NCBI RefSeq assembly: GCF_000265405.1
Contig: NC_018010.1
Span: forward strand, 1,612,001-1,676,000
DNA length: 64,000 nt
Direction of reading: 5' to 3'
Source: Belliella baltica DSM 15883
GTDB taxonomy: Bacteria; Bacteroidota; Bacteroidia; Cytophagales; Cyclobacteriaceae
Shown: positions 32,538 through 48,947 of the stretch, in pieces
Layout: every line of letters starts with the position of its first letter
Position numbering within the stretch: position 1 is the first letter of the stretch
The notes under the pieces: generated by a model
What the model saw: the letters and a program-made list of their open reading frames with translations, nothing else
Database searches by the model: none
What the model was told of the DNA's origin: nothing
Translations under genes and position numbers: made by a program

Positions 32538-32700
32538 GTTTTATTTTGGCAAGGGAAATGATTTGAAAATTTAAATTTGAAACTTTAAATATAAGAAGCG
32601 AAACGTAAGAATTTAGAAAGAAGATTTTTATAGTGACTTTTTTGACAAGCTAATTAACTCTAATCTACTTTAAAATCTTTATTAAAAAATAAACTAATTC

Positions 32701-32721: not shown

Positions 32722-32744
32722 CAAAAGCTCTTAGGCGAGAGTTG

Positions 32745-32758
32745 ACTTTGGCCAAAGT
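32745..32758. promoter_or_regulatory. 14-bp perfect palindrome upstream of the peptide gene, copy 1
   Basis: ACTTTGGCCAAAGT is a perfect palindrome 27 bases before the start codon and is conserved in copy 2 (47382-47395). It could be an operator or a leader RNA element. Confidence 0.4.
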
Positions 32759-32785
32759 TTTTTATTTATTTTACTTTAGTGAATT

Positions 32786-32971: not shown

Positions 32972-32978
32972 TTTCTTT

Positions 32979-33012
32979 AGCCCACTTCAATCATTTTTGA
33001 AGTGGGCTTTAT
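32979..33012 (+). terminator. Terminator/attenuator hairpin between peptide and DUF4221 genes, copy 1
   Basis: The stem AGCCCACTTCAA / TTGAAGTGGGCT is followed by a short T-rich tract. It separates the peptide gene from DUF4221 in both copies, so DUF4221 expression may depend on read-through. Confidence 0.75.
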
Positions 33013-33030
33013 TAATTAAAAAACAAAAAT

Positions 33031-34172
33031 ATGTATTTAAAAAAAAATTGATACCGGTAATTTTCATTTTCATTTTCTCATGTAATGATCAAGATTATGG
33101 AAAATTTATTTTAAAGGAATTGGATGAGATTGTTGTCCCTGTTAATGATTTCGCATTATCCAATCCAGGAATGATTAGTATTTACGACTCAGACTCTGGA
33201 GAACATGTAATGATTTACAATCATGTAATCAACAAACTGCAGATTTCAGAATTTCCATCTGGAAAATTGAAATTAAATATTCCATTAGAGTTTGAGAGCG
33301 AGAAAAGAACTAAGCGATTTACAGGAGGAACTCTGATTGCTGAAGATTCGATTTTTGTGACATTTTATCCTCCTTCACTTGGAATGATAAATTTTAAAGG
33401 TGATTTAACCTTTGAACAAAAATTACCTGAATCTAATTATAGAGTTTCACATATCGGGAATGGGAGCATGATCCCACTTTTCAAATCGAATGGTAGAATT
33501 TATGGTGCTCAGCCATTCCTAATGGATCATCATAGAATGTCAAAGGAAGATGTTCAAAAACAGCAGTTGGTTTACAGTGTGAGTTTGGAGGAAGATGGTG
33601 CGGCCTGGCATGAAGTTTTTTATAGTCCGACTTATTGGGATGAAGGGAAAAAGCTTTCCTATTTTTCTTGGGCAAAGCGTGGTGATTTGATTTATATTTC
33701 TCCATTTTACGATCATCAAATTCAGGTTTTTGATACCAAAACAAATCAAGTTGTAAATGTCAAAACCGTCAAGTCAAGTCAAGTGGATAATTTCAATGTG
33801 GTGAATCAAATGCCTGAAAACGAAAGTAAATCAGTAATCGCTACCTTGGAGTCAGGTCAATATGAGACTTTTTTATATGATAAATATAGAGATGTTTTTT
33901 ATAGAGTTTTCCTCCCACCTTATCCGATCGAAAAGCAGTATGAAATAGAGGAACTTAGATTAATGGAAAGATCAAGACCAAAAACAGGAATCATGGTTCT
34001 TGATGCAGATTTGAATATTCTTTCAGAGCATATATTTGATTTATTTCAAGTTCACTCTTCAGATAATTTTCTTGTTGGTAAAGAAGGGCTTTATGTCTCA
34101 ACTAATAATATGAATAGTCCGAGCTTTACCGATGATCAAATGAGCTATGTTAAGTTGAAACTGGATCAATAA
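33031..34172 (+). pseudogene. DUF4221 family lipoprotein, copy 1, out of frame at its start codon
   Basis: The coding sequence matches the intact 380-residue DUF4221 protein of copy 2. The ATG at 33031 is followed by a run of nine A (33039-33047) instead of ten, so it reads only six codons before TGA at 33049-33051. The long frame itself remains open from there to 34172. An in-frame TTG at 33048, just before the lipoprotein signal segment, might allow weak initiation, and slippage on the A-run could restore the frame. The gene is otherwise intact, so it may be a phase-OFF allele rather than a decayed gene. A base-calling error in the homopolymer is the main alternative. Confidence 0.8.
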
Positions 34173-34309
34173 CAGTATCTTTAATATTCTAATTTTACAT
34201 TAAGCTTCTCTAAACTAAATCGAAACTGTGTTATAATCATGCATAGTCCAGATTTCCCTTTTCACTGATTATTCCCTAACTTTAAGAGAACCCCAAACTA
34301 TGAGAAGCT

Positions 34310-34897
34310 ATGAAATACCACATCACTTTTATCGTATTGATACTTTGTTTATCGCTGGCAAAAGCTCAAGAAATTCCAAGCAAAGAAATCCAAATCAAAA
34401 CAGCCTTGCTCGCTGCTCCAGAAGAAATGAAAGCTGGTGCCATGGTCTATGGATATGATGAAAAAGGAGAATTTATCATCTTGCGCAAAGGAACCAATGA
34501 GCTCATCTGCCTCGCGGACGATCCAAAAAGTCCGGGATTTAATGCTTCTTGCTACTTTAAGGAACTGGATATTTTTATGGAAAGAGGTAGACAGCTGAAA
34601 AAGGAAGGAAAAAACACTAAGGAAATTTTTGATATTAGAGAAGCAGAGGCAAAGAGTGGAAAATTAAAAATGCCTAAGGATGGAGCGACGCTTTTTGTAT
34701 TGACAGCCGAAGATGCTGATTACAATCGGAATACTGGAGAAGTCAAAGATTCTTATCTCCGCTATGTGGTCTATATCCCATGGGCAACTTCAGAAAGTAC
34801 AGGTTTGCCACTTCGCCCTTCTGGACCAGCTATGCCATGGATCATGGATCCCGGAACACACCGCGCCCACATCATGATCAATCCACCGAGGAATTAG
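34310..34897 (+). CDS. Secreted protein of unknown function (195 residues)
   Basis: A 195-residue protein with a signal peptide over about residues 1-19 (ILCLSLAKAQE). The mature part has YGYDEKGEFIILRKGTNELI, two cysteines near residues 67 and 81, and a proline-rich end (LPLRPSGPAMPWIMDPGTHR) with histidines that could bind a metal. No family is recognised. It is the third gene of the duplicated cassette; only here is it complete. Copy 2 is cut after about 84 residues by the IS21 element. Confidence 0.75.
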   Translation: MKYHITFIVLILCLSLAKAQEIPSKEIQIKTALLAAPEEMKAGAMVYGYDEKGEFIILRKGTNELICLADDPKSPGFNASCYFKELDIFMERGRQLKKEGKNTKEIFDIREAEAKSGKLKMPKDGATLFVLTAEDADYNRNTGEVKDSYLRYVVYIPWATSESTGLPLRPSGPAMPWIMDPGTHRAHIMINPPRN

Positions 34898-34937
34898 GGT
34901 AGTTATTTGTTGATTAAGTGATTGGTCAAAAATCTTT

Positions 34938-35040
34938 AACCACAAGGGTTACGAAGAATTCACAAGGGTCACAAAGTCTAACTCCCCTAAGGAATATCAC
35001 TGTGCTCTTTGTGCAACCTTGGCGTTTTTTGTAGTAAAAA
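34938..35040. repeat. Imperfect inverted repeat element in intergenic region
   Basis: CACAAGGGTCACAAAG (about 34961-34976) faces CTTTGTGCAACCTTGG (about 35007-35022) as an imperfect inverted repeat, with a further CACAAGGGTTAC unit before it. It resembles dispersed ACAAAG-rich palindromic repeats found between genes in many Bacteroidota; that resemblance is from memory. Confidence 0.45.
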
Positions 35041-35127
35041 GATTATTTTGCGTTAGCCAACTTTAAAACATCAGAATCTTCTAACATTTCAACCTTCCCA
35101 AAAAATTCTAATCAACAATGGCGGGCA

Positions 35128-35242
35128 AGTTTTTCCAATCTTTCAATCCGCCACGTCTGACAAGTTTTTCCAATCTTCTATCCTCTCCCAAAATCGAGCT
35201 TTTCCAACCTTCCAATCTTCCAACTTTCCCAATCTTCCAACG
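35128..35242. repeat. Degenerate TTCCAATCTT-type repeats
   Basis: Units such as TTTTTCCAATCTT, CTTCCAATCTTCCAAC and TTCCCAATCTTCCAAC recur at least six times just beyond the helicase stop codon. The rest of the 346-base gap (34898-35243) contains only this and the inverted repeat element. Confidence 0.5.
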
Positions 35243-35243
35243 T

Positions 35244-36608
35244 CTACCCCCCTTTCTTCTTCCATTTCCCTTGGGTTTTCATTTGGTTTCTGTTGCGTTT
35301 GGCCTTAGAGTTTTTGTTTCCACGTTTTTCTTTTGGCTTGTTGGGGTTGGGTCTTGGGATCGCTTTTTTCTCGTGAAAGCCCCCTTTGAAATCAGGGTTT
35401 TCCTTCCGCTTCTGACCATCAATCTCACGATCATAGATTTGTTTTTCTATAAATGGCGTTGGAGTAATGGAAACTTCATCTGGAATGTTGGCTTCCATAA
35501 CAGTCATTCGGATGATTTCTTCTATCCTTTCGAAGTGATAGATTTCCGCAGGATTGACAAAAGTAATGGCCGCACCATCTTGCTCTGCGCGACCTGTTCT
35601 TCCAATTCGGTGAACATAATCTTCATAGATCAAAGGCACATCAAAATTGATCACATGACTCACCATGGTGATGTCAAGCCCTCTTGCCGCCACGTCTGTT
35701 GCAACCAGAATTCTTACATCACCCGCTTTAAAATCCTCCATGGAGTTGATCCGTGTATTTTGTCCTTTGTTGGCGTGAATCACACGGATTTCTCCAAGAT
35801 TTTTCCTGCTTAAATATGTAAAAACAGATTCCGCATTTTTTCTCGATTTGGTAAAAACGATCACTCGTTTTACATTTTCGTCTGCTAGAATGTGTTCAAG
35901 GAGATTTGTTTTGGTTTTGATATTTGGGACAAGATACTTGATCTGATAAATGGTCTCAGCTGTTGTCGCTTGTGCTGAGATTTCTACCCTTTCAGGAAAT
36001 TCTAAAAATTCTGTAGAAAGTCGTTCTACTTTTTCACTGAAAGTGGCAGAGAAAAGAAGGTTTTGTCTTTTGGTAGGGATCACTTCTAGAATTGCTCTGA
36101 TTTGTGGGGTGAATCCCATGTCTAGCATCTTATCGGCTTCATCCATGACCATGGTTTTGATTTCACGGACGAAGATTTCACCTTTTTTGTACAGATCCAT
36201 AAATCTGCCTGGGGTCGAAATGATAATATCAACTCCTGCTTTTAATTTTTCGATTTGCGGTTTAGGGCCAAGTCCACCATAAAGACATACAAATCTCAAG
36301 TCTGTGAATTTCCCAAAATCAATCACAGCTTCCTCAATTTGCATGCAAAGTTCACGTGTTGGAGCAAGGATTAGAACTCTCGGATGTTGTCCTTGAGCAT
36401 ATTTTGCTTTAAATAAAATCGGTAGCACATAGGCTGCGGTCTTGCCTGTTCCGGTCTGCGCAATACCTAAAACATCATGTCCAGCTAAAGCAAGTGGTAT
36501 AGCTTTTTCCTGAATTGGGGTAGGTTTGGTGTAGCCTGCCTCTTTGACTGCTTCTAAAAGCTGTTTATTTAATTTAAAATTTTCAAAAGATGGAGTGCTA
36601 TCGGACAT
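35244..36608 (-). CDS. DEAD-box RNA helicase (RhlE-like)
   Basis: A 454-residue ATP-dependent RNA helicase. Motifs in order: the Q motif (FENFKLNKQL ... YTKPTPIQ), Walker A AQTGTGKT (about 45-52), PTRELC, VMDEADKMLDMG, LFSATFS, then the C-terminal helicase half with VIVFTKSRKNAE, VATDVAARGLDI and HRIGRTGRAEQDG. A basic Lys/Arg/Asn-rich tail of about 60 residues (RPNPNKPKEKRGNKNSKAKR) probably adds RNA affinity. It is likely involved in ribosome assembly or RNA turnover. It is divergent from pyrC, with 137 bases between them. Confidence 0.94.
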   Translation of the reverse strand: MSDSTPSFENFKLNKQLLEAVKEAGYTKPTPIQEKAIPLALAGHDVLGIAQTGTGKTAAYVLPILFKAKYAQGQHPRVLILAPTRELCMQIEEAVIDFGKFTDLRFVCLYGGLGPKPQIEKLKAGVDIIISTPGRFMDLYKKGEIFVREIKTMVMDEADKMLDMGFTPQIRAILEVIPTKRQNLLFSATFSEKVERLSTEFLEFPERVEISAQATTAETIYQIKYLVPNIKTKTNLLEHILADENVKRVIVFTKSRKNAESVFTYLSRKNLGEIRVIHANKGQNTRINSMEDFKAGDVRILVATDVAARGLDITMVSHVINFDVPLIYEDYVHRIGRTGRAEQDGAAITFVNPAEIYHFERIEEIIRMTVMEANIPDEVSITPTPFIEKQIYDREIDGQKRKENPDFKGGFHEKKAIPRPNPNKPKEKRGNKNSKAKRNRNQMKTQGKWKKKGG

Positions 36609-36745
36609 GATTGATTATTTTTGAAGAATTGGGAAAACATTAGAAATTAAACTCAAACAAAGTTTTTCTGGTTGATTTTTGTAATTGATTTTCTCCCAAT
36701 GTCAATTACAGATATGAACAACCTTTCATACAAAATTAAAATTCC

Positions 36746-38086
36746 ATGAAAAGTATCTTGATCACCGGTGCAAATATAGTAAATGAAGGCAAGATTACCC
36801 CTCTAGATATTCTTATCCAAGATGGCTTATTTTATAATGTTGGAAATGATCTGTCAGAATTTGATGCGGATATCAAAATTGATGCAAAGGGAAAATACAT
36901 TTTTCCTGGCCTTATTGATGATCAAGTTCATTTTAGAGAGCCAGGATTGACGCATAAGGCTGACATTTATACAGAAAGTAAATCTGCCGTAGCAGGCGGG
37001 ATCACCACTTATATGGAAATGCCCAATACTGTTCCTCAAGCTACTACGATAGAATTGCTTGAAGACAAATACAAAATCGCATCCGAAAAATCTTTGGCGA
37101 ATTATTCTTTTTATTTAGGGGCAACCAATGATAATATTGATGAAATTTTAAAAGTAGATCCAGAAAATGTTTGTGGGATTAAGGTTTTTCAAGGTTCATC
37201 CACCGGGAATATGCTGGTCGATAATCAAGAAAGTCTCAAAAGAATTTTTTCTGAATGTAAACTCTTGATCGCTACACACAGTGAAAATGACAATATCATC
37301 AAAGAAAATCTAGAAAAGTACAAAGCAGAGTTTGGTGAAGATATCCCGACTGAATATCATCCTAAAATTCGAACAGAGGAGGCCTGTTACGATGCATCAA
37401 AAAGAGTAGTAGATTTAGCGAGACAGTATGGATCCAAATTGCATGTTTTACATATAAGTACAGCCCGGGAAGTCGAGCTGTTTGATAATCGATTACCTCT
37501 AGAGGAAAAAAGGATCACAGCAGAAGCTTGTGTTCACCACCTTTGGTTTTCGGAGGAAGATTATCAAGAGAAGGGAAATTTTATCAAATGGAATCCAGCG
37601 ATCAAAACTGCTGAAGATAGAGCAGGGATATTAAAGGGTGTTCTGGAAGGTAATATAGATGTGATTGCGACAGATCATGCGCCGCATACATTGGAAGAGA
37701 AAAGCGAAAAGTATCTCAAAGCTCCATCTGGAGGCCCTTTGGCACAGCACAGCTTAGTCGCTTTATTGGATCTATACCATGACCGCAAGATTAGACTTGA
37801 GGAGATAGCTCAAAAGACGAGTCATAATGTTGCGATTTTATTTGAAATCGAAAAAAGGGGATATATCAGACCAGGATACCATGCGGATTTGGTCATTGTA
37901 GATTTAGATAGTCCATGGGAAGTAAATAGAGAAAATGTACTATCTAAATGTGGTTGGTCACCTTTTGAAGGCCATACATTCAAGTCAAAAATCACGCATA
38001 CGATCGTTTCGGGTCACTTGGCGTACGATAATGGTACATTCAATGAAGAAAAGAAAGGAGAGCGAATAAAATTTTCAAGAAAATAA
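36746..38086 (+). CDS. pyrC: Dihydroorotase
   Basis: A 446-residue amidohydrolase of the type I dihydroorotase group, closing carbamoyl-aspartate to dihydroorotate. Visible motifs are FPGLIDDQVHFREPGLTHKA, MEMPNTVPQ, a metal-binding histidine in LHISTAREVELF, EACVHHLWFSEEDY, and the catalytic aspartate in IATDHAPHT. In the first metal motif the usual HxH reads QVH; I believe this Gln form is common in Bacteroidota, so it need not mean loss of function. Type I enzymes can also resemble allantoinases, but motif choice and length favour PyrC. Confidence 0.92.
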   Translation: MKSILITGANIVNEGKITPLDILIQDGLFYNVGNDLSEFDADIKIDAKGKYIFPGLIDDQVHFREPGLTHKADIYTESKSAVAGGITTYMEMPNTVPQATTIELLEDKYKIASEKSLANYSFYLGATNDNIDEILKVDPENVCGIKVFQGSSTGNMLVDNQESLKRIFSECKLLIATHSENDNIIKENLEKYKAEFGEDIPTEYHPKIRTEEACYDASKRVVDLARQYGSKLHVLHISTAREVELFDNRLPLEEKRITAEACVHHLWFSEEDYQEKGNFIKWNPAIKTAEDRAGILKGVLEGNIDVIATDHAPHTLEEKSEKYLKAPSGGPLAQHSLVALLDLYHDRKIRLEEIAQKTSHNVAILFEIEKRGYIRPGYHADLVIVDLDSPWEVNRENVLSKCGWSPFEGHTFKSKITHTIVSGHLAYDNGTFNEEKKGERIKFSRK

Positions 38087-38097
38087 ATTGATTTTGT

Positions 38098-38128
38098 TTG
38101 CTTACAAAAATCCGAAATACTACTTTTG
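38098..38128 (+). promoter_or_regulatory. tRNA-His promoter
   Basis: TTG at 38098-38100 and TACTTTTG at 38121-38128 are 20 bases apart, 39 bases before the mature tRNA. Confidence 0.7.
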
Positions 38129-38167
38129 CAGTCCGTTCAGATAGATGATCTGAAAAGTAATTTATAT

Positions 38168-38242
38168 GGTGGTTGTAGCTCAGCTGGTTAGAGCACTGGT
38201 TTGTGGATCCAGGGGTCGCCGGTTCGAACCCGGTCTTCCACC
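38168..38242 (+). tRNA. tRNA-His (anticodon GTG)
   Basis: The D arm GCTC/GAGC, anticodon loop TTGTGGA with GTG at 38203-38205, and T arm GCCGG-TTCGAAC-CCGGT are clear. G38168 pairs with C38242 as the extra G-1:C73 pair that marks tRNA-His. CCA is not encoded. Two T·T mismatches occur in the acceptor stem (38173/38237, 38174/38236) and one at the anticodon stem end (38200/38208). It has its own promoter and a terminator five bases downstream. Confidence 0.9.
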
Positions 38243-38246
38243 CTTT

Positions 38247-38271
38247 GACCCCTCCTATGGAGGGGTTTTTT
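38247..38271 (+). terminator. Terminator of tRNA-His
   Basis: The stem CCCCTCC / GGAGGGG with loop TAT is followed by TTTTTT. Confidence 0.9.
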
Positions 38272-38351
38272 CATTTTTCAGGAATAAAAATGAACTCAAA
38301 TGGCATATATTTTGTCTAAAAAAAGTAAAAAAACAAATCAACTATACTGTA

Positions 38352-38492
38352 ATGTTTACATTATTTAAAGCTTCACCAAAATTCCCAAAGGTGCAACCGC
38401 TAAATGTTAAATTCATTCAGCGATATTTTGAGAAGTTTGAAGAGTCAATTAAGACTTTTGAAGAACTCCAAAAAGAAAGTGTTAGCTCTTAA
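38352..38492 (+). CDS. Small protein of 46 residues, unknown function
   Basis: A 46-codon frame, MFTLFKASPKFPKVQPLNVK to the end EELQKESVSS. It is amphipathic and charged, with no signal or membrane segment. It lies in the 360-base gap between the tRNA terminator and the debranching enzyme gene and is followed 17 bases later by its own perfect terminator hairpin, which argues for a transcribed unit. No family is recognised. Confidence 0.5.
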   Translation: MFTLFKASPKFPKVQPLNVKFIQRYFEKFEESIKTFEELQKESVSS

Positions 38493-38508
38493 TTTGAGCA
38501 TAGATTTA

Positions 38509-38539
38509 AAGGTTATGGAAACATAACCTTTATTTTTTG
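38509..38539 (+). terminator. Terminator after the 46-residue gene
   Basis: The perfect 10-bp stem AAAGGTTATG / CATAACCTTT with loop GAAA is followed by ATTTTTT. Confidence 0.88.
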
Positions 38540-38604
38540 TCTAATTAGTTTTTCTTTCAATTAGTATAAACTATTTTTATGGAAATCTCCAAACTTTTAA
38601 CCAA

Positions 38605-40521
38605 ATGAGTTATATCCATTTTGACAAAACCCAACTAATAAATCTTAATTATTCTCTCGATCGCGAAATAATCAGAACTAATAGAGGAGGTTCTTACACC
38701 AGCACAACAATCATTGGATGTAATACAAGAAAATATCACGGGCTTTTGGTGTCTCCTCAACCACAAATAGACTCACAGCTCCATGTTTTGCTTTCTACAG
38801 TTCATGAAACAGTTATACAAAGAGGAGCTAGTTTTAACTTAGGTATCAATAAGTATCCGGGAAATTATTCCCCTCGTGGGCATAAATATTTGGAGGATTT
38901 TGATTCGGAGCCTATTCCAAAATTGACCTATCGTGTGGGAGGTGTTGTCTTGCAAAAAGAACTGATTCTTGACACCAATCGAGATAGAGTGATGATTAGA
39001 TATACTCTTTTGGATGCCCATTCACCAACCAAAATCAGAATCAGCCCTTTCTTAGCATTCCGAGGTTATCACAGTCTTTCAAAAGAAAATGGTGATATCA
39101 ACAAAGATTTTCAAAAGGCCCCAAATGGTGCGATTTTCCAGTTGTATCCAAATTATTCACCATTATTTTTACAATTGTCAAAGAAAAACCACTTTGAATC
39201 TAACCCTAATTGGTACAACAATATTGAGTATATCCTAGAAAGAGAACGTGGTTATGATTACCAGGAAGATTTGTTTGTACCAGGGTTTTTTGAATTTGAC
39301 ATTGAAAAAGGAGAATCTGTAATATTTTCCGCAGGTTTGACAGAAGCTGATCCAAGTACTAGGCAACGTGCTTTTGAAAAAGAATTAGCAAGAAGAATCC
39401 CAAGAAGTAATTTTGAAAATTGTCTTAAAAACTCTGCTGGTCAGTTTATTCAAAAAAGAGAAGGGAAAACACATGTGATTGCTGGATATCCTTGGTTTGG
39501 TTGGTGGGGAAGAGATACCTTTATCGCCTCACCTGGATTGACCTTGCCAAATGGAGATAAAGATACTTTTTTAGAAATTATGGATACCATGGTCGCTGAT
39601 TTGCATGGACCGCTTTTCCCCAATGTAGGTAGTGGAGTAATGCGAAACATGAACTCTATGGATGCTCCACTTTGGTTTTTTTGGTCACTGCAGCAATATA
39701 TTGCCTTTACTGGAGATTCGAAAACTGTCAAAAAGAAGTATTTGGAAAAAATGAAAGGGATTATTGAAGGCTATAAGGCGGGAACAGACTACAATATCCA
39801 CATGCTTGAAAATGGACTAATGTTCGGTGGTGAAGAAGGTATTGCTCTTACTTGGATGGATGCCGTCAACTCAGATGGACCTGTTACTCCTAGAATCGGC
39901 TGTCCAGTAGAAATAAATGCACTTTGGTACAATGCACTTTCCTTTTATCATGAATTGACTGGGGATAAGGAGATAGAAGATTTGGCATTGAAGGTCAAAA
40001 CAAGTTTTATTGAAGAGTTTTGGGATGAAAAGAAAGGCTATTTGGCAGACTTTTTTAACAATGAGTATAAAGATTGGTCAATTAGACCAAATATGGTTAT
40101 TGCTACTTCATTGCCATATAGTGCTTTAGAAGAAAGTCAGATGGATAGTGTTTTGGAAATTGTAAAATCTAAATTGCTTACACCAAGAGGGTTGAGGTCC
40201 TTATCTCCAGATGACCCCGGGTATAAAGGGTATTACTTTGGCAACCAATATACTCGTGATATTGCTTATCATAATGGAACAGTCTGGGCATGGCTTTTAG
40301 GTCATTTTTCAGAGGCTTACCTGAAGCTTCATGGAAAGTCAGGAAAGAATTTTATTGAAAAAATTATTAAAGGGTTTGATAGTGTGATGACCCAATATGG
40401 AGTTGGTACTGTTGCTGAGATTTTTGATGGGGATCCCCCACATCGTGCTAAAGGGGCTATTTCTCAAGCTTGGAGTATTGGTGAATTATTGAGAATGATG
40501 TATCTAGTGAACAAAGTTTAA
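38605..40521 (+). CDS. Glycogen debranching enzyme (amylo-alpha-1,6-glucosidase)
   Basis: A 638-residue cytoplasmic enzyme. The N-terminal GDE_N beta-sandwich domain occupies about residues 15-230 (REIIRTNRGGSYTSTTIIGC, TRKYHGLLVSPQP). An (alpha/alpha)6 GDE_C catalytic domain follows (about 270-635) with AGYPWFGWWGRDTFIASPGL, GLMFGGEEGIALTWMDA and the conserved WSIGELLRM end. It hydrolyses alpha-1,6 branch points. It is the first gene of a tight operon with a GT4 glycosyltransferase (9-base gap) and a GH57 amylase (2-base gap), pointing to storage-glucan metabolism. Confidence 0.93.
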   Translation: MSYIHFDKTQLINLNYSLDREIIRTNRGGSYTSTTIIGCNTRKYHGLLVSPQPQIDSQLHVLLSTVHETVIQRGASFNLGINKYPGNYSPRGHKYLEDFDSEPIPKLTYRVGGVVLQKELILDTNRDRVMIRYTLLDAHSPTKIRISPFLAFRGYHSLSKENGDINKDFQKAPNGAIFQLYPNYSPLFLQLSKKNHFESNPNWYNNIEYILERERGYDYQEDLFVPGFFEFDIEKGESVIFSAGLTEADPSTRQRAFEKELARRIPRSNFENCLKNSAGQFIQKREGKTHVIAGYPWFGWWGRDTFIASPGLTLPNGDKDTFLEIMDTMVADLHGPLFPNVGSGVMRNMNSMDAPLWFFWSLQQYIAFTGDSKTVKKKYLEKMKGIIEGYKAGTDYNIHMLENGLMFGGEEGIALTWMDAVNSDGPVTPRIGCPVEINALWYNALSFYHELTGDKEIEDLALKVKTSFIEEFWDEKKGYLADFFNNEYKDWSIRPNMVIATSLPYSALEESQMDSVLEIVKSKLLTPRGLRSLSPDDPGYKGYYFGNQYTRDIAYHNGTVWAWLLGHFSEAYLKLHGKSGKNFIEKIIKGFDSVMTQYGVGTVAEIFDGDPPHRAKGAISQAWSIGELLRMMYLVNKV

Positions 40522-40530
40522 CGCTATTTT

Positions 40531-41811
40531 ATGAAGGTTTTAATGTTTGGGTGGGAATTTCCACCACATATATCTGGAGGACTTGGAACTGCCTGTTATG
40601 GCTTGGTTAAGGGACTTGTGCATCATAAGCAAGATATAATTTTTGTTGTGCCAAAATTATGGGGTGATGAAGAACCACTTGCAGATTTTGTTAATGCCAG
40701 TGGGGTTACCATCGATTACAGAGAAAAGAAATTCAAGCAGATTTGGAAAAATCTCACCTATTTAGAAGTAGGTAGTTTCTTGGTTCCTTATTTAAGTCCA
40801 GAAGAATTTAAGAAATACACTGATTATGCTATGCACGATAGAGTTGATGTAGATGAAAGTGTGTTTAGCAACAAGTTTGAGTTTAGTGGTAAATATGGGA
40901 AAGACTTGATGAAGGAAGTTTCTAGATACGCCTTAGTTGCAGCTCAAATAGCAAAATCAAAAGATCATGATGTCATTCATGCCCATGATTGGTTAGCCTA
41001 CCCTGCTGGGATTGCTGCCAAACACATGAGCGGTAAGCCACTTGTAGCACATATTCACGCCACTGAATTTGATCGTTCTGGAGAATCAGTAAACAAGCCT
41101 GTTTTTGATATTGAATATGCCGGGCTTCATGCTGCTGACCATGTAGTAGCAGTAAGTCATTTGACTAGGAATATTGTAATTAACAAATATGGTGTTCATC
41201 CAGATAAAGTCAGTGTACTTCACAATGCCGTTTTGGATGCAAGCATCATTGAGTCTAAAGTAAAGAAGAAGGTTCCTGAAAAAATCGTGACTTTCTTAGG
41301 TAGGATTACTTTCCAAAAAGGACCAGAGTATTTTGTAGAAGCTGCCAAGAAAGTTATCGACAGAGACCCAAATGTACGATTTGTGATGGCAGGTAATGGG
41401 GATTTGCTCAATCGGATGATTGACCGAGTTGCTGAATTGGGAATGGGAACGCGATTTCATTTTACAGGATTCCTCAAAGGTCAAGATGTTGATGACATGT
41501 ATGCCATGTCAGATGTTTATGTGATGCCGTCTGTTTCTGAGCCATTTGGAATTGCACCTCTAGAGGCGGTGAGGCACAATACTCCTGTGATTATTTCAAA
41601 ACAATCAGGGGTAGCAGAAGTGCTTCAAAATGCAGTTAAAATTGATTTTTGGGATGTTGATGCCATGGCAGATGCTGTTTTTGCGCTACTTCATTATCCC
41701 AGCATTTCTAAAATGTTTAAAGAGTTGGGTAGCGAAGAATTGAAAAATTTGAAATGGGAACACGTCGCTGCCAAATTAGTCACTGTTTATGAAAAAATAA
41801 CTAAAGAATAG
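40531..41811 (+). CDS. GT4-family glycosyltransferase, glycogen synthase-like
   Basis: A 426-residue GT-B glycosyltransferase. The N-terminal GT5/GT4-type domain begins MKVLMFGWEFPPHISGGLGT, with the donor-loop motif SGGLGTA, and DVIHAHDWLAYPAG follows. The C-terminal nucleotide-binding domain has VTFLGRITFQKGPEYFVEAA and the EX7E region MPSVSEPFGIAPLEAV. Its placement between a debranching enzyme and a GH57 amylase suggests an alpha-glucan (glycogen) synthase rather than a cell-surface sugar transferase; this role is inferred from context. Confidence 0.88.
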   Translation: MKVLMFGWEFPPHISGGLGTACYGLVKGLVHHKQDIIFVVPKLWGDEEPLADFVNASGVTIDYREKKFKQIWKNLTYLEVGSFLVPYLSPEEFKKYTDYAMHDRVDVDESVFSNKFEFSGKYGKDLMKEVSRYALVAAQIAKSKDHDVIHAHDWLAYPAGIAAKHMSGKPLVAHIHATEFDRSGESVNKPVFDIEYAGLHAADHVVAVSHLTRNIVINKYGVHPDKVSVLHNAVLDASIIESKVKKKVPEKIVTFLGRITFQKGPEYFVEAAKKVIDRDPNVRFVMAGNGDLLNRMIDRVAELGMGTRFHFTGFLKGQDVDDMYAMSDVYVMPSVSEPFGIAPLEAVRHNTPVIISKQSGVAEVLQNAVKIDFWDVDAMADAVFALLHYPSISKMFKELGSEELKNLKWEHVAAKLVTVYEKITKE

Positions 41812-41813
41812 CT

Positions 41814-43022
41814 ATGAGAACGATTTGTTTTTATTTTCAAGTACATCAACCTTTAAGGATTAAGCCTTATCGTTTTTTTGACATAGGGGATGATCATTAT
41901 TATTGGGATGATTATAGCAATAAAAGTATCATGCGTAAAGTAGCTCAAAAATGCTATTTACCTATGAATGCGCTTTTGTTAGATTTGATCAATCAATATA
42001 ATGGTGCATTTAAAGTAAGTTTTTCAATCTCAGGCGTTTGTTTAGATCAATTTGAAGCTTATGCTCCAGATGTGCTTGATAGTTTCAAAAAACTAGTTGC
42101 TACGGGGCATGTAGAGCTTTTGAGTGAAACAGATGGACATGCTCTATGTGCTTTAAAAAGCAAGGATGAATTTACCAGAATGGTCAAAAAGCATAAGGAA
42201 AAAATAAAAAAACATTTTGATGGATATGAGCCAAAGGTATTTAGAAACACCGAGTTGATTTATTCTGATACTATTGGGGCAACGGTGTCAGAAATGGGTT
42301 ACGAGGGAATATTGACTGAAGGAGCAAAGCATATATTAGGTTGGAAAAGTCCAAACTATGTTTATCAAAATTCAATCAAGCCTGAATTAAAAGTTCTCTT
42401 GAAAAACTTCCAACTCAGTGATGATATTGCTTTCAGGTTTTCAAATAAAACTTGGGCTGATTACCCTTTGACCACTGATAAATTTGTAAAGTGGATCAAT
42501 AACATTCCAAAAGAAGAAGAAACTCTCAATCTTTTTATGGATTATGAAACTTTTGGAGAGCATCAGTGGGCAGACTCAGGGATATTTGAATTTATGAAGG
42601 CTTTGCCTAATGCTGTGTTTAATGGAAGTGATTTTGGTTTTTCTACACCTTCAGAAGTTCTTAAGCATGCCAAGATGATTTCGCCAATTCACGTACCAAC
42701 ACCGATTTCTTGGGCCGATGAAGAACGAGATTTGACAGCTTGGTTGGGTAATGATTTGCAAGATGAAGCTTTTGGGAAATTATATGAATTGGAAGATAAG
42801 GTAAAGAAAATCGATGATGCTGAAATTCAGAGGGATTGGGTTTATTTACAAACTTCAGATCACTTCTATTATATGTGCACCAAGTTTTTCTCTGATGGAG
42901 ATATTCACGCTTACTTTAGCCCGTATGATTCTCCTTATGATGCATTTATCAACTATATGAATGTTCTGAGCGATTTTATTCTTAGAGTTGAAAAGAAAAT
43001 CAAGGAAATAAAGACAGTTTGA
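41814..43022 (+). CDS. Glycoside hydrolase family 57 (alpha-amylase/4-alpha-glucanotransferase-like)
   Basis: A 402-residue GH57 enzyme. The N-terminus ICFYFQVHQPLRIKPYRFFD is the GH57 signature with its first conserved histidine. The nucleophile is E147 in FRNTELIYSDTIG and the likely acid is D243 in FMDYETFGEHQWAD. It probably cleaves or remodels alpha-1,4-glucans in the cytoplasm. It starts two bases after the glycosyltransferase stop, so the debranching enzyme, glycosyltransferase and GH57 genes form one operon. Confidence 0.92.
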   Translation: MRTICFYFQVHQPLRIKPYRFFDIGDDHYYWDDYSNKSIMRKVAQKCYLPMNALLLDLINQYNGAFKVSFSISGVCLDQFEAYAPDVLDSFKKLVATGHVELLSETDGHALCALKSKDEFTRMVKKHKEKIKKHFDGYEPKVFRNTELIYSDTIGATVSEMGYEGILTEGAKHILGWKSPNYVYQNSIKPELKVLLKNFQLSDDIAFRFSNKTWADYPLTTDKFVKWINNIPKEEETLNLFMDYETFGEHQWADSGIFEFMKALPNAVFNGSDFGFSTPSEVLKHAKMISPIHVPTPISWADEERDLTAWLGNDLQDEAFGKLYELEDKVKKIDDAEIQRDWVYLQTSDHFYYMCTKFFSDGDIHAYFSPYDSPYDAFINYMNVLSDFILRVEKKIKEIKTV

Positions 43023-43064
43023 TAGAATCAGTTTAAAGGTCTTAGAAAAATAAAAAAACATGAT

Positions 43065-43589
43065 ATGAAAAATAAGGGATTGTTTTCTTTATTCGTCTTA
43101 TTATTGGCTTTAAATTCCTGTGTTTTAAAAACCGAAGATAAAGCAGATGTTACGAGCAGTGAAGAATTAGAAACTACGATCACTAGATTTGATAGACCAG
43201 ATGCTAGTATTTTGAAGGGGGTGCATATTCCTTCTGATAAAGAATATTTTTATACTTCCGGATTAGTTGCTGATGTTATCAACCCCAATGTAGAAGCAGG
43301 TACCTACGAACGCTACGGTAATACTTATCAACAAAGCATAAGCACGTTAGAAAAAATAAAAGCAACCTTGAAAGAAGCTGATTTTGAGATGAAAGATGTG
43401 TTTTTTCTCCGAGTTTACTTAGCTCCAAATCAAGAAGGTGAAGTAGATTGGCAGGCTTGGTTTGATGCGTATGGTGAGTATTTCAACAATGATGAAAATC
43501 CAAATAAAGTGGCTAGAAGCACCATAGCCGTTTATGCTTTGGCTAACCCTGATTTATTGATAGAAATTGAAGCCGTAGCTGCCAAATGA
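43065..43589 (+). CDS. RidA-family protein with lipoprotein signal
   Basis: A 174-residue lipoprotein with signal MKNKGLFSLFVLLLALNSC (cysteine at residue 19) followed by a RidA/YjgF/UK114 domain (about 45-172). Family elements are FYTSGLVADVI, the central helix STLEKIKATLKEADFEMKDV, the conserved arginine in VARSTIAVYAL, and LIEIEAVA at the end. Typical RidA enzymes are cytosolic and hydrolyse reactive enamines/imines; an exported form is unusual. Its TGA overlaps an ATG (43586) that was the original start of the next lipoprotein gene, now displaced by an IS66 element. Confidence 0.87.
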   Translation: MKNKGLFSLFVLLLALNSCVLKTEDKADVTSSEELETTITRFDRPDASILKGVHIPSDKEYFYTSGLVADVINPNVEAGTYERYGNTYQQSISTLEKIKATLKEADFEMKDVFFLRVYLAPNQEGEVDWQAWFDAYGEYFNNDENPNKVARSTIAVYALANPDLLIEIEAVAAK

Positions 43590-43599
43590 AAAAACACTC
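43586..43599 (+). pseudogene. Original 5' end of the downstream lipoprotein gene, split off by IS66
   Basis: ATGAAAAAACACTC is the severed start (M-K-K-H-S) of the lipoprotein gene now beginning at 45165. Rejoining it across the 8-base target duplication gives one continuous frame, M-K-K-H-S-I-L-L-A. The ATG overlaps the RidA stop codon by ATGA, so the two genes were formerly translationally coupled. Confidence 0.8.
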
Positions 43600-45182
43600 G
43601 TAACTACTCAGGTTGTAAATTAGCTATATGATTTAGATTTTCTAAGATATTTCCCGAACGTTTGATCAGGGTATCCACGACGGATCTTATAACACAGAAG
43701 TTTTCAGCTCCATTGTTGGATTTGAACTGTCCTGATATTTTTTGTTTCACCTTGATGTTGCGTATGGCTCTTTCAGAGGCATTGTTATCCGGTGGTACTT
43801 TTTGGTGATAGAGAAAAGTAAAAAGTGACTTTCTGTATTTCAGGAGTCTTTTTTGTAGGGATACTGCTTCTTTATGTTTTGACTCTACAGGTTGGGCGAG
43901 TAGGTTATCCATCTTCTCTTCAATGGAAGCAATACTCCTGCTATTCTCTGGATCTGGTAGTTTTTTGAGTTTTCTCTTCAGTGAGATAGCTTCCCTGAAC
44001 AGGGCCCTAAGGCTGTCAGCCCATTTAGATTTATAGCGTTCAACAATGTAGTTGAGCTCCCTAAGCAGATGTGCACAACAGAGCTGGTGCAGGTTTTCCG
44101 AATAGTTGAAGTATGCCCTCCATGCATCGTGGCACAATACTGCCTTTCCGAACCCATCGGGAAAATGTGTATTCATCGCCTTAAGTCCACGTGATTCAGA
44201 TATAGCTAACAGGGTGAGTTCCTCGGTCTGATAAGTCCAGACCCACTGTTTGTTTCCATCCACTTTAGCCCCAGTCTCGTCAGCTCCTATCACAGGACTT
44301 TTAGAGACTGCCGTCTTTATCTTTGCATATATTGGTGCAGACTTGCGGGCAAACCTACCGATAATGTTATCGATACTCCCCTCGCTGAGATTAATACCGA
44401 AGCAGTCCCTGAGAAGTTCTTTCATCCTTCTATAGGGAACATACTGTCTGGCATGCAGATAACCGACAATGGTTTCAACACCGCTCCCGTACTGTATGGG
44501 GGCATTGATATTGTCAGGGAATGACCCACTGATCTTTTCTCCACAGGAACAGTTTTTGGAAAAGATTCTATGCTCGGTACATACCACTTTAATCACAGGA
44601 AGATCCAGGACCTGTCTTTTGGAGGACAGTTCTGCTGGAACCGCCGACAGATCACCACCACAGCAGGTACAGAATAAAGGGATGTGGTTTTCTATTATGT
44701 CCGGGGAGGATGTCATTTCAAGGGTATGGCCTTTGTGTCCAGGCTGACCGCCGGTTTTGCGCCCTGTATCCTGACGGAGACTCTGATTTTTTTTGGGGCG
44801 GTTCTCGTCTTTTGAAGGGGGAACCGAGCTGTTGCGGCTGTTTTTTGGATTACGGTAACGGGCAAGCTCATTTTCCAAATCGGATACCCTAGATTTTAAA
44901 GACTTGACCTGCTCCATAAGCTGGAGGTTCATCTTGATCAGTTCCTGAATAAGCGTATCCCTGTGGTCCAATATACTATAGAAATGTTTCCTGAATATCA
45001 GCACATAATCCCATGAATACCAATAATCCACGCTGTTTTTCCCCACAAAAAAATGTGGATAAACCAACTTTAAAGCTGATTTTCGTACATTCACATACAA
45101 ATACGCATCAATACACCACAGAGGGCAACAAGACTCCAAATACTTGAATATCGGTCAGTAAATAATGTACCTGAGTAGTTAC
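43600..45182 (-). mobile_element. IS66-family insertion sequence, copy A (1583 bp, intact)
   Basis: The element is bounded by perfect 14-bp inverted repeats GTAACTACTCAGGT / ACCTGAGTAGTTAC. An 8-bp target duplication AAACACTC lies at 43592-43599 and 45183-45190, the IS66 length. It carries one long transposase gene on the minus strand and none of the accessory tnpA/tnpB genes, so it is a single-gene IS66 type. It interrupts a lipoprotein gene at its fourth codon. Confidence 0.95.
43604..44932 (-). CDS. IS66-family transposase (TnpC-like), copy A
   Basis: A DDE transposase of about 442 residues from the ATG at 44932; the frame stays open to 45139, so a longer start cannot be excluded. Parts in order: a leucine-rich coiled coil (MEQVKSLKSRVSDLENELAR), the SRNSSVPPSKDENRPKKN linker, a zinc-finger region (FCTCCGGD ... 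CTEHRIFSKNCSCGEK), and the catalytic core with GADETGAKVDGNKQWVW, CHDAWRAYF and NNASERAIRNIKVKQK. All catalytic acids are present, so it is probably functional. Confidence 0.93.
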   Translation of the reverse strand: MNLQLMEQVKSLKSRVSDLENELARYRNPKNSRNSSVPPSKDENRPKKNQSLRQDTGRKTGGQPGHKGHTLEMTSSPDIIENHIPLFCTCCGGDLSAVPAELSSKRQVLDLPVIKVVCTEHRIFSKNCSCGEKISGSFPDNINAPIQYGSGVETIVGYLHARQYVPYRRMKELLRDCFGINLSEGSIDNIIGRFARKSAPIYAKIKTAVSKSPVIGADETGAKVDGNKQWVWTYQTEELTLLAISESRGLKAMNTHFPDGFGKAVLCHDAWRAYFNYSENLHQLCCAHLLRELNYIVERYKSKWADSLRALFREAISLKRKLKKLPDPENSRSIASIEEKMDNLLAQPVESKHKEAVSLQKRLLKYRKSLFTFLYHQKVPPDNNASERAIRNIKVKQKISGQFKSNNGAENFCVIRSVVDTLIKRSGNILENLNHIANLQPE

Positions 45183-45599
45183 AAACACTCTATTTTATTA
45201 GCCCTTTTCTTGGTTTTTTCCCTGTCTTCTTGTGATGTGGAGGATGTATTTAAGGTATTTAAATGGAGTGTAGATAGTTTCATTGGAGAAGGCTTTTTGC
45301 CTTCTGAGGAAATAATTGCTTTAGGAGCTTTTCAACGAACTGAAGTGAATGTTCAGCAGAAAACAGAAAATGGTGAATCAGCCGGAACCATTGAATTGAA
45401 GCTTTATAATGGAAATTCTGAAGCACTGAGACTCAATGAAGAAGGAACAGCGAGAAAATGTGCTGAACTTTATGCAGAAGGCTTTTCAAAAATAGAAGAT
45501 TATCAAAAAATCATGATCTATTTTATTCAAACAGACCCCAATAATCCTGATAATATAGCGATTACCGAATATGCATTTGAAGTCAAAGATTTCCTTTAA
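45165..45599 (+). CDS. Small lipoprotein with IS66-supplied start codon
   Basis: A 144-residue lipoprotein of unknown family. Its ATG and first six codons (MYLSSY) lie in the terminal repeat of IS66 copy A; native sequence begins at KHSILLALFLVFSLSSC, a complete lipoprotein signal with lipid-bearing cysteine at residue 23. The mature part contains FKWSVDSFIGEGFLPSEEII and ends FEVKDFL. Before the insertion the protein began MKKHSILLAL and was coupled to the RidA gene. Expression now depends on a promoter inside or beyond the element, which I cannot identify. IS66 copy B begins 11 bases after the stop. Confidence 0.78.
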   Translation: MYLSSYKHSILLALFLVFSLSSCDVEDVFKVFKWSVDSFIGEGFLPSEEIIALGAFQRTEVNVQQKTENGESAGTIELKLYNGNSEALRLNEEGTARKCAELYAEGFSKIEDYQKIMIYFIQTDPNNPDNIAITEYAFEVKDFL

Positions 45600-45610
45600 T
45601 TAAAAGTTAT

Positions 45611-47192
45611 GTAACTACTCAGGTTGTAAATTAGCTATATGATTTAGATTTTCTAAGATATTTCCCGAACGTTTGATCAGGGTATCCACGACGGATCTTA
45701 TAACACTGAAGTTTTCAGCTCCATTGTTGGATTTGAACTGTCCTGATATTTTTTGTTTCACCTTGATGTTGCGTATGGCTCTTTCAGAGGCATTGTTATC
45801 CGGTGGTACTTTTTGGTGATAGAGAAAAGTAAAAAGTGACTTTCTGTATTTCAGGAGTCTTTTTTGTAGGGATACTGCTTCTTTATGTTTTGACTCTACA
45901 GGTTGGGCGAGTAGGTTATCCATCTTCTCTTCAATGGAAGCAATACTCCTGCTATTCTCTGGATCTGGTAGTTTTTTGAGTTTTCTCTTCAGTGAGATAG
46001 CTTCCCTGAACAGGGCCCTAAGGCTGTCAGCCCATTTAGATTTATAGCGTTCAACAATGTAGTTGAGCTCCCTAAGCAGATGTGCACAACAGAGCTGGTG
46101 CAGGTTTTCCGAATAGTTGAAGTATGCCCTCCATGCATCGTGGCACAATACTGCCTTTCCGAACCCATCGGGAAAATGTGTATTCATCGCCTTAAGTCCA
46201 CGTGATTCAGATATAGCTAACAGGGTGAGTTCCTCGGTCTGATAAGTCCAGACCCACTGTTTGTTTCCATCCACTTTAGCCCCAGTCTCGTCAGCTCCTA
46301 TCACAGGACTTTTAGAGACTGCCGTCTTTATCTTTGCATATATTGGTGCAGACTTGCGGGCAAACCTACCGATAATGTTATCGATACTCCCCTCGCTGAG
46401 ATTAATACCGAAGCAGTCCCTGAGAAGTTCTTTCATCCTTCTATAGGGAACATACTGTCTGGCATGCAGATAACCGACAATGGTTTCAACACCGCTCCCG
46501 TACTGTATGGGGGCATTGATATTGTCAGGGAATGACCCACTGATCTTTCTCCACAGGAACAGTTTTTGGAAAAGATTCTATGCTCGGTACATACCACTTT
46601 AATCACAGGAAGATCCAGGACCTGTCTTTTGGAGGACAGTTCTGCTGGAACCGCCGACAGATCACCACCACAGCAGGTACAGAATAAAGGGATGTGGTTT
46701 TCTATTATGTCCGGGGAGGATGTCATTTCAAGGGTATGGCCTTTGTGTCCAGGCTGACCGCCGGTTTTGCGCCCTGTATCCTGACGGAGACTCTGATTTT
46801 TTTTGGGGCGGTTCTCGTCTTTTGAAGGGGGAACCGAGCTGTTGCGGCTGTTTTTGGGATTACGGTAACGGGCAAGCTCATTTTCCAAATCGGATACCCT
46901 AGATTTTAAAGACTTGACCTGCTCCATAAGCTGGAGGTTCATCTTGATCAGTTCCTGAATAAGCGTATCCCTGTGGTCCAATATACTATAGAAATGTTTC
47001 CTGAATATCAGCACATAATCCCATGAATACCAATAATCCACGCTGTTTTTCCCCACAAAAAAATGTGGATAAACCAACTTTAAAGCTGATTTTCGTACAT
47101 TCACATACAAATACGCATCAATACACCACAGAGGGCAACAAGACTCCAAATACTTGAATATCGGTCAGTAAATAATGTACCTGAGTAGTTAC
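45611..47192 (-). mobile_element. IS66-family insertion sequence, copy B (1582 bp, frameshifted)
   Basis: It has the same 14-bp terminal repeats as copy A and differs at three positions: one T missing in a T-run (46546-46548) and two substitutions. The flanks do not form a target duplication (AAAGTTAT on the left, GAAAATTT on the right), so the present junctions arose by recombination or deletion rather than simple insertion. Its right end is the left boundary of the second cassette copy. Confidence 0.92.
45615..46942 (-). pseudogene. IS66 transposase, copy B, split by a 1-base deletion
   Basis: The sequence is nearly identical to copy A, but loss of one T near 46546 shifts the frame just after the zinc-finger region. 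The N-terminal part reads into unrelated residues and stops near 46433, and the catalytic half (45615-46436) is left in another frame. A cysteine in the FCVIRS segment of copy A is serine here. The copy is probably inactive but could be mobilised by copy A because its ends are intact. Confidence 0.9.
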
Positions 47193-47328
47193 GAAAATTT
47201 AAATTTGAAAAGTCAAATTTTAGAAACAAAACGTAATAATTAATATATAAGATTTTTTTGTGACTTTTCTGATAAACTAATTAACTCTGATCCACTTTAG
47301 AATCTTATAAAAAAAATCAAACTAACTA

Positions 47329-47358
47329 TTGCGTATAATAATAATAATAATAATATTG
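47329..47358 (+). promoter_or_regulatory. Promoter-like elements with ATA microsatellite spacer, copy 2 (7 units)
   Basis: TTG at 47329-47331 and TAATATTG at 47351-47358 are 19 bases apart, the usual Bacteroidota spacing. The spacer is built of an ATA repeat of seven units (47335-47355, overlapping the -7-like box). The -7 box has one mismatch to TAnnTTTG. Confidence 0.5.
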
Positions 47359-47381
47359 CAAAAGCTCTTAGGCGAGAGTTG

Positions 47382-47395
47382 ACTTTGGCCAAAGT
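47382..47395. promoter_or_regulatory. 14-bp perfect palindrome upstream of the peptide gene, copy 2
   Basis: ACTTTGGCCAAAGT, identical to that in copy 1 and at the same distance from the start codon. Confidence 0.4.
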
Positions 47396-47422
47396 TTTTT
47401 ATTTATTTTACTTTAGTGAATT

Positions 47423-47608
47423 ATGAAAAAGTACACATTATTAATGGCGATTCTTGGAGTTTTTGCATTTTATTCGAACCCTGTGGTAGGTCAAGAAGAA
47501 GTGCCGGATGATGAATATGAGTGGTGTCAATTTATTGATAGACCAGATAGACCTGAAATAGATGGTTGTAAAGTTGCTTATTTCGATCATATTTGTCCTT
47601 GCGAATAA
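47423..47608 (+). CDS. Small secreted cysteine-containing peptide, copy 2
   Basis: The 61-residue precursor is identical to that at 32786-32971: signal peptide, acidic mature part, and cysteines in WCQF, DGCKV and ICPCE. Here the upstream promoter-like elements have the favourable 19-base spacing and the downstream DUF4221 gene is in frame, so this is the copy more likely to be expressed. Confidence 0.75.
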   Translation: MKKYTLLMAILGVFAFYSNPVVGQEEVPDDEYEWCQFIDRPDRPEIDGCKVAYFDHICPCE

Positions 47609-47615
47609 TTTCTTT

Positions 47616-47650
47616 AGCCCACTTCAATCATTTTTGAAGTGGGCTTTATT
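47616..47650 (+). terminator. Terminator/attenuator hairpin between peptide and DUF4221 genes, copy 2
   Basis: Same stem as in copy 1, AGCCCACTTCAA / TTGAAGTGGGCT, followed by a T-rich tract, 18 bases before the DUF4221 start codon. Confidence 0.75.
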
Positions 47651-47667
47651 AATTAAAAAACAAAAAT

Positions 47668-48810
47668 ATGTATTTAAAAAAAAAATTGATACCGGTAATT
47701 TTCATTTTCATTTTCTCATGTAATGATCAAGATTATGGAAAATTTATTTTAAAGGAATTGGATGAGATTGTTGTCCCTGTTAATGATTTCGCATTATCCA
47801 ATCCAGGAATGATTAGTATTTACGACTCAGACTCTGGAGAACATGTAATGATTTACAATCATGTAATCAACAAACTGCAGATTTCAGAATTTCCATCTGG
47901 AAAATTGAAATTAAATATTCCATTAGAGTTTGAGAGCGAGAAAAGAACTAAGCGATTTACAGGAGGAACTCTGATTGCTGAAGATTCGATTTTTGTGACA
48001 TTTTATCCTCCTTCACTTGGAATGATAAATTTTAAAGGTGATTTAACCTTTGAACAAAAATTACCTGAATCTAATTATAGAGTTTCACATATCGGGAATG
48101 GGAGCATGATCCCACTTTTCAAATCGAATGGTAGAATTTATGGTGCTCAGCCATTCCTAATGGATCATCATAGAATGTCAAAGGAAGATGTTCAAAAACA
48201 GCAGTTGGTTTACAGTGTGAGTTTGGAGGAAGATGGTGCGGCCTGGCATGAAGTTTTTTATAGTCCGACTTATTGGGATGAAGGGAAAAAGCTTTCCTAT
48301 TTTTCTTGGGCAAAGCGTGGTGATTTGATTTATATTTCTCCATTTTACGATCATCAAATTCAGGTTTTTGATACCAAAACAAATCAAGTTGTAAATGTCA
48401 AAACCGTCAAGTCAAGTCAAGTGGATAATTTCAATGTGGTGAATCAAATGCCTGAAAACGAAAGTAAATCAGTAATCGCTACCTTGGAGTCAGGTCAATA
48501 TGAGACTTTTTTATATGATAAATATAGAGATGTTTTTTATAGAGTTTTCCTCCCACCTTATCCGATCGAAAAGCAGTATGAAATAGAGGAACTTAGATTA
48601 ATGGAAAGATCAAGACCAAAAACAGGAATCATGGTTCTTGATGCAGATTTGAATATTCTTTCAGAGCATATATTTGATTTATTTCAAGTTCACTCTTCAG
48701 ATAATTTTCTTGTTGGTAAAGAAGGGCTTTATGTCTCAACTAATAATATGAATAGTCCGAGCTTTACCGATGATCAAATGAGCTATGTTAAGTTGAAACT
48801 GGATCAATAA
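47668..48810 (+). CDS. DUF4221 family lipoprotein, copy 2 (intact)
   Basis: A 380-residue lipoprotein. The start MYLKKKLIPVIFIFIFSC is read through a run of ten A (47676-47685); the lipid-bearing cysteine is residue 18. The mature part is rich in short beta-strands with recurring aromatic and aspartate positions (HVMIYNHVINKLQISEF; HQIQVFDTKTNQVV), as in a six-bladed propeller. It ends with the family-typical YDKYRDVFYRVFLPPYP region. DUF4221 proteins are known mainly in Bacteroidota and have no assigned function. The preceding secreted peptide and following secreted protein suggest a surface or periplasmic unit. Confidence 0.82.
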   Translation: MYLKKKLIPVIFIFIFSCNDQDYGKFILKELDEIVVPVNDFALSNPGMISIYDSDSGEHVMIYNHVINKLQISEFPSGKLKLNIPLEFESEKRTKRFTGGTLIAEDSIFVTFYPPSLGMINFKGDLTFEQKLPESNYRVSHIGNGSMIPLFKSNGRIYGAQPFLMDHHRMSKEDVQKQQLVYSVSLEEDGAAWHEVFYSPTYWDEGKKLSYFSWAKRGDLIYISPFYDHQIQVFDTKTNQVVNVKTVKSSQVDNFNVVNQMPENESKSVIATLESGQYETFLYDKYRDVFYRVFLPPYPIEKQYEIEELRLMERSRPKTGIMVLDADLNILSEHIFDLFQVHSSDNFLVGKEGLYVSTNNMNSPSFTDDQMSYVKLKLDQ

Positions 48811-48947
48811 CAGTATCTTTAATATTCTAATTTTACATTAAGCTTCTCTAAACTAAATCGAAACTGTGTTATAATCATGCATAGTCCAGATTTCCCTTTT
48901 CACTGATTATTCCCTAACTTTAAGAGAACCCCAAACTATGAGAAGCT

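Follow-up and report, generated by a model that had tools for sequence, protein, structure and literature searches.

The 64,000-nucleotide stretch of Belliella baltica DSM 15883 analyzed here (NC_018010.1, positions 1,612,001 to 1,676,000, forward strand; referred to as "the window") carries two nearly identical copies of a small gene cassette, arranged in the order presumed promoter, gene for a 61-residue cysteine-containing (Cys) peptide, hairpin, and gene for a DUF4221 lipoprotein. Both presumed promoters hold a short ATA repeat, and simple repeats of other kinds occupy the same region ahead of comparable cassettes of this genome (4,196,595 bases, one contig) and of its genus. Judging from the sequences, it is rather probable (about 0.66 in our own estimate) that these cassettes are phase-variable through a repeat that sets promoter spacing, as at the hifA/hifB fimbrial promoter of Haemophilus influenzae, and that the one-base difference between the poly-A runs of the two lipoprotein genes (nine vs. 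ten A) is a second, incidental slip. Positions given without a locus label are those of the window, and L- and G-numbers are our own labels for loci and genomes. The features of the two copies are:

32701–32722, forward strand: copy 1 presumed promoter repeat, TTGC-GT-(ATA)4-TTGC, TTG-to-TTG distance 18
32786–32971, forward strand: copy 1 small secreted-type Cys peptide gene, 61 amino acids, intact
32979–33008, forward strand: copy 1 hairpin between the peptide and lipoprotein genes, 12-bp perfect stem, terminator- or attenuator-like
33031–34172, forward strand: copy 1 DUF4221 lipoprotein gene, frame broken at A9 (33039–33047), stop after six codons
47329–47359, forward strand: copy 2 presumed promoter repeat, TTGC-GT-(ATA)7-TTGC, TTG-to-TTG distance 27, holding the 15-mer TAATAATAATAATAA
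47423–47608, forward strand: copy 2 small Cys peptide gene, 61 amino acids, same sequence as in copy 1
47616–47645, forward strand: copy 2 hairpin, identical to that of copy 1
47668–48810, forward strand: copy 2 DUF4221 lipoprotein gene, 380 amino acids, A10 at 47676–47685, PF13970

Simple repeats upstream of the cassettes

Two promoter boxes have been described for the phylum, TAnnTTTG at -7 and TTTG at -33 (PMC2483708; PMC7366714; here and below, statements from the literature refer to the portions of the cited papers that were available). In different cassettes, repeats of TA, AT, ATA, TAT, or TTCT occupy the same region; they begin past a box resembling TTTGC or TTGC, and TTG closes most of them, with the boxes assigned by eye. 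The number of units would thereby set the spacing of the presumed boxes. The TTG-to-TTG distance is 22–28 in seven promoters with ATA, TAT, or TA units (L109, L170, L156, L111, L128, L191, and L117); that of copy 2 falls inside this range, and that of copy 1 below it.

In an initial scan covering 600 bp upstream, 6/56 DUF4221 loci (a few genes being included twice among the 56) had repeats, 4/6 in this genome, vs. 0/229 control genes. A wider survey tallied 203 DUF4221 and TolB_like matches, of which 158 were entered and 156 examined, the remainder being mostly from G006, weak, or fragments. With a detector blind to repeats, a Cys peptide was found ahead of 40 of the 156 propeller-lipoprotein hits, and a 2–6-base repeat lay no more than 140 bp ahead of the peptide start in 18 of these 40 genus-wide (8/14 in this genome). 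Control genes with mostly intergenic upstream DNA gave none, neither here (0/135) nor in seven congeners (0/113), and controls taken without this filter gave 1/271, 0/44, 0/152, and 0/193. The contrast of 18/40 with 0/248 (Fisher 6.7e-18, a value that ignores shared ancestry) places a simple repeat just upstream of these genes beyond chance, as for loci of the hif type. Outside the 18 stand an octamer (L196), T10 and T17 (L113 and L181), T9 (L154), G8 (L118), and the 11-base TTCT tracts of L165 and L212. The octamer occurs about six times upstream of its cassette peptide, and the G8 run belongs to an AT-rich genome; a 464-kb sample of the B. baltica genome holds no run of eight or more G or C.

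Counting the repeats themselves, (TA) runs of at least seven units occur at two loci in this genome, both of them cassettes, and at four loci in eight genus genomes, three of them cassettes. The 15-mer TAATAATAATAATAA occurs at two loci here (copy 2 and another cassette) and at seven in the eight genomes (four cassettes), and the 15-mer CTTTCTTTCTTTCTT at four loci here and 29 in the eight genomes. Seven of this genome's eight such loci precede cassettes, and the remaining one precedes a 522-residue lipoprotein. When the 29 CTTTCTTTCTTTCTT loci were read by eye from their open reading frames (ORFs), 22 preceded a Cys peptide and three directly preceded a lipoprotein of 510–522 residues, with two uncertain (L254, L258) and two unrelated (L267, L269); at L257 the gene following the peptide cannot be recognised as a propeller. 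Runs starting with A and ending in T escape the (TA) pattern, and repeats in other phases (e.g., L111) escape the two 15-mers.

Some tract lengths differ by whole units between related loci. The 25 TTCT tracts with a conserved upstream flank measure 15, 19, 23, 27, or 31 bases (n = 6, 14, 3, 1, and 1), that is, in one-unit steps. Fourteen related pairs were aligned, some of which are not strict orthologues: L260 and L265 lie one TTCT unit apart, with 107/107 identical residues in the peptide and 143/146 identical positions in the promoter; L113 and L181 have T10 vs. T17 (promoter 140/143 identical); and the tracts measure 31 vs. 11 bases in L105/L165 (123/129 identical), 19 vs. 11 in L121/L212, and 16 vs. 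13 in L111/L191. Repeats of this kind before many such gene pairs of the genus suggest a candidate random on/off switch.

Several related arrangements were also observed. A TTCT promoter stands directly before lipoprotein-type genes of 510–522 residues, with no small peptide, at L251 (tract 361–383), L270 (4888–4910), and L266 (308–326, reverse strand). Cassettes in other genera of the family have T-runs in the 200 bp ahead of the peptide start, of 9 (L038), 10 (L039, L042, and L047), 12 (L051), and 15 bases (L060), but of only 6 and 7 in L013 and L053. L034, from another genus (G027), has TTTGTC followed by a 16-base TAT repeat about 50 bp before the projected DUF4221 start, with no peptide between. 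Tandem DUF4221 arrays with no Cys peptide detected ahead occur at L101 (1205828–1209062 of this genome, three matches) and at L218 (contig C106 of G006, eight matches listed).

The two copies and the poly-A run

Alignment of 32719–34562 with 47356–49200 leaves one A as the sole difference in about 1.84 kb, bearing out what the first-pass annotation of this DNA had described: nine A at 33039–33047 in copy 1, whose ATG at 33031 reads MYLKKN and then a stop; ten A at 47676–47685 in copy 2, whose ATG opens the 380-residue reading; and no other damage to copy 1, the rest of the segment being the same as in copy 2. The lipoprotein frame of copy 1 is open back to 32925 as a 415-codon ORF, a start there being unsupported. 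The copies also differ directly upstream, with (ATA)4 at 32707–32718 vs. (ATA)7 at 47335–47355, and to the left of the repeat (32565–32706 vs. 47193–47334) 116 of 143 aligned columns are identical. In the protein search, the copy 2 protein was represented by three member sequences on two contigs, the second of which is perhaps from another strain.

Among the 156 genus hits, a run of at least nine A inside the coding start is found in the two window copies only; extending the region to 170 bp before the family match adds one further hit (3/156), L163, where the run stands before the start codon. Orthologues at 52–74% identity have no such run, their longest being A7, and the A10 start of a 36% relative, L047, looks independent. 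Within 464 kb of this genome, 14 A/T runs of at least nine bases were counted, seven of them inside ORFs, and a 9-mer of A has 188 overlapping matches in the whole genome, both strands counted. The same sample holds 101 runs of at least eight bases, five of which look frame-breaking in a simple test that cannot flag copy 1 itself; only one of the five is convincing (L065). There, at 12165 (about 912165 in this genome), a one-base change in an A8 run would join frames from 98 into 376 codons, which may reflect a pseudogene, an error, or a switch.

Weighing the explanations

In the mechanism we favor, a simple repeat would sit between a -33-like TTTGC and a -7-like TTG; strand slippage would add or remove units and change the spacing of the boxes, and the changed spacing would switch or tune transcription of the peptide and lipoprotein genes together. 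With four units and a spacing of 18, copy 1 may be weak or off. At the hifA/hifB promoter, with (TA)9–11, a short promoter repeat has likewise been proposed to shift the spacing of two boxes, and repeat number and even unit type differ between loci and strains (PMC2651432). The cassettes differ from that system in phylum and promoter type, in encoding a Cys peptide and a propeller lipoprotein, in their large number per genome, and in the several units used in one slot. The invertible promoters of Bacteroides provide phase variation in the same phylum, but via DNA inversion rather than repeat slippage (PMC10939037).

The upstream repeats could also be fixed binding or bending elements, which we consider unlikely. 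Their flanks are strongly conserved, 14 of the 25 TTCT tracts share the length of 19 bases, and five of the 14 related pairs keep their tract length (L252/L264, L251/L270, L111/L128, L261/L271, and L263/L270b); fixed elements would nonetheless fit poorly with unrelated units in the same slot and with whole-unit changes between near-constant flanks, as in L260/L265, L113/L181, and L105/L165. The equal-length pairs count against slippage-controlled promoters as well, as do several further observations. With one genome per species, the differences are those among species and among paralogues rather than within a strain, and that between L139 and L216 is a substitution. Regarding the boxes, according to PMC7366714 an RNA-seq study of Flavobacterium failed to detect the -33 box; the -7 box of these promoters is not a clean TAnnTTTG; only 21/30 TTCT tracts are followed by the G that makes them end in TTG, and a TTG at the tract end is missing from L112, L139, and L216. 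TTG-to-TTG distances of the TTCT class spread over 19–35 in 20 tracts and measure 15 in L165 and L212, so that the spacing of copy 1 is not the shortest. As to the counts, the 18 repeat loci are interdependent, since the TTCT promoters share ancestry and two of the loci are the window copies; six of the 40 peptide detections, kept in the 18/40 count, were judged false by eye, none of them with a repeat (L201 twice, L161, L144, L123, and L149); and 16 of the 34 remaining cassettes have no 2–6-base repeat by the thresholds used. Furthermore, 1/4 (TA), 3/7 (TAA), and 2/29 TTCT loci of the eight genomes are not such promoters, and the control counts imply one further (AT)n run in G002, missed by the (TA) pattern.

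Regarding the poly-A run, the first-pass annotation had proposed a slippage-controlled ON/OFF switch, that is, a selected control of the lipoprotein, reversible among 9, 10, and 11 A. The position of A9/A10 two codons past the ATG, the early stop, and the otherwise undamaged copy 1 agree with this, and there is a precedent in the 5' poly(A) of inlA, also a few codons past the start, where one base fewer leads to a very short product with a stop after residue 8 (PMC2831843). Unlike the window pair, which are two copies in one genome with a tract missing from the orthologues and from the coding starts of the 154 other genus hits, the inlA alleles differ among strains, and their reversion has been measured (PMC2831843). 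A first difference within the run would moreover be expected even without selection: variation of the inlA run is about 1,000-fold above the average point mutation, deletion being much rarer than insertion (A7 to A6 about 3.9e-8, A6 to A7 about 5.5e-7; PMC2831843), which makes such a run a likely site of the first change in a fresh duplicate. The run was rejected as a conserved switch of the family, and we regard it as quite improbable that it is a selected switch of this gene; what stands of the proposal is the kind of gene, phase-variable, for which support comes from the upstream repeats that the annotation did not include. A different possibility is that RNA polymerase or ribosomes slip on A9 during expression, so that copy 1 also yields the full lipoprotein and the DNA difference tunes its level. 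If copy 1 were read with a -1 slip at A_AAA_AAA, or if its mRNA carried one additional A, the product would match the copy 2 protein exactly, so that the "OFF" state may be leaky. AT-rich bacterial genomes avoid long A/T runs in coding DNA, and the authors of that finding link the avoidance to transcriptional slippage (PMC1088944). No unusually stable structure follows the run (z 0.4), and frameshifting with a stimulating structure was set aside; slippage during expression is possible, though we lean away from it. The nine-A run could finally be a sequencing or assembly error, homopolymers being common error sites. Widespread homopolymer errors were not seen in this assembly, given the 5/101 frame-breaking runs in 464 kb, and two real, separate loci are shown by the insertion sequence (IS) junctions, the ATA tract, and the divergence farther upstream, although these do not address the run length itself; an error appears very unlikely.

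Under the promoter-spacing explanation, the A9/A10 difference would be an incidental slip in a mutable run that encodes the signal-peptide lysines of the lipoprotein. Such a slip would be in keeping with weak selection on copy 1, from which some full-length lipoprotein may still arise by slippage.

Cassette products, locus history, and biological meaning

The 61-residue peptide has a signal-type start and four cysteines in both copies, and comparable small Cys peptides sit ahead of many other DUF4221 genes; 15 peptide-lipoprotein cassettes were found in this genome (L252 included). Neither the window peptide (Pfam or NCBIfam) nor 13 other cassette peptides (Pfam) gave a match above cut-off, so that no such match places the window peptide among the NVEALA-type small peptides of Bacteroidota. 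The hairpin of the two copies has a folding z of -6.1, and a perfect stem of at least 8 lies between the two genes in 25/34 cassettes (the 40 detected peptides minus the six judged false) vs. 1.9 expected from base shuffles. The copy 2 beta-propeller lipoprotein matches PF13970 (DUF4221) with 53.8 bits (curated cut-off 23.4) and has a lipobox-like FSC by eye. Its predicted fold (mean pLDDT 82.6) has its best match in 3s9j (BVU_1028), itself a DUF4221 protein, with a TM score of 0.68 by query length. Export of the cassette products and their location at the surface are presumed.

The surroundings of the two copies comprise:

32543–34251 (ends approximate), forward strand: copy 1 cassette segment, missing at the same place in five congeners having both neighbours
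34310–34897, forward strand: 195-residue gene right of copy 1, present in 5/7 other genus genomes
43600–45182, reverse strand: second, intact IS66-type element, with AAACACTC on both flanks
45611–47192, reverse strand: IS66-type element left of copy 2, transposase split into 273 + 238 residues, flanking 8-mers not matching
48948–49200, forward strand: first 253 bases of a second copy of the 195-residue gene, cut at the IS21-type element
49304–51619, reverse strand: IS21-type genes right of copy 2, istB at 49304–50047 and istA-like at 50063–51619

In the five congeners that have the 195-residue gene, the left-hand peptidase gene adjoins it with no cassette between, and copy 1 is, by this comparison, an extra segment relative to them. 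Copy 2 is bounded by the IS66-type element on the left and, from about 49200, by the IS21-type element, which leaves the next gene without its 3' part; since that remnant is the beginning of the 195-residue gene, copy 2 derives from a copy-1-like arrangement. It also looks mosaic: identity is lower to the left of the ATA repeat, and the transition lies at the repeat itself, where a recombination or conversion event might have ended. Compared with the intact IS66-type element, the one beside copy 2 lacks a T (TTTT to TTT; 46525–46570 vs. 44515–44560), and this splits its transposase.

Control of promoters by slippage is familiar mainly from pathogens adapted to a host, and the phase variation known in Bacteroidota consists mainly of promoter inversion; B. 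baltica is a bacterium that we take to be free-living. Searches of open-access literature, which covered few subscription papers, gave no paper for DUF4221 or NVEALA, and among the papers they listed on promoters controlled by repeats, or on contingency loci of the phylum, none dealt with these genes. Tentatively, and with only a slight lean against it, the genus may keep a repertoire of cassettes whose promoters have acquired differing simple repeats in one slot between the boxes, so that each cell would express a random mix of secreted peptides and their partner lipoproteins, a combinatorial bet-hedging that would perhaps serve recognition, antagonism, or phage evasion. If slippage does control these promoters, it would provide the first biological clue to these uncharacterised peptide and lipoprotein families.

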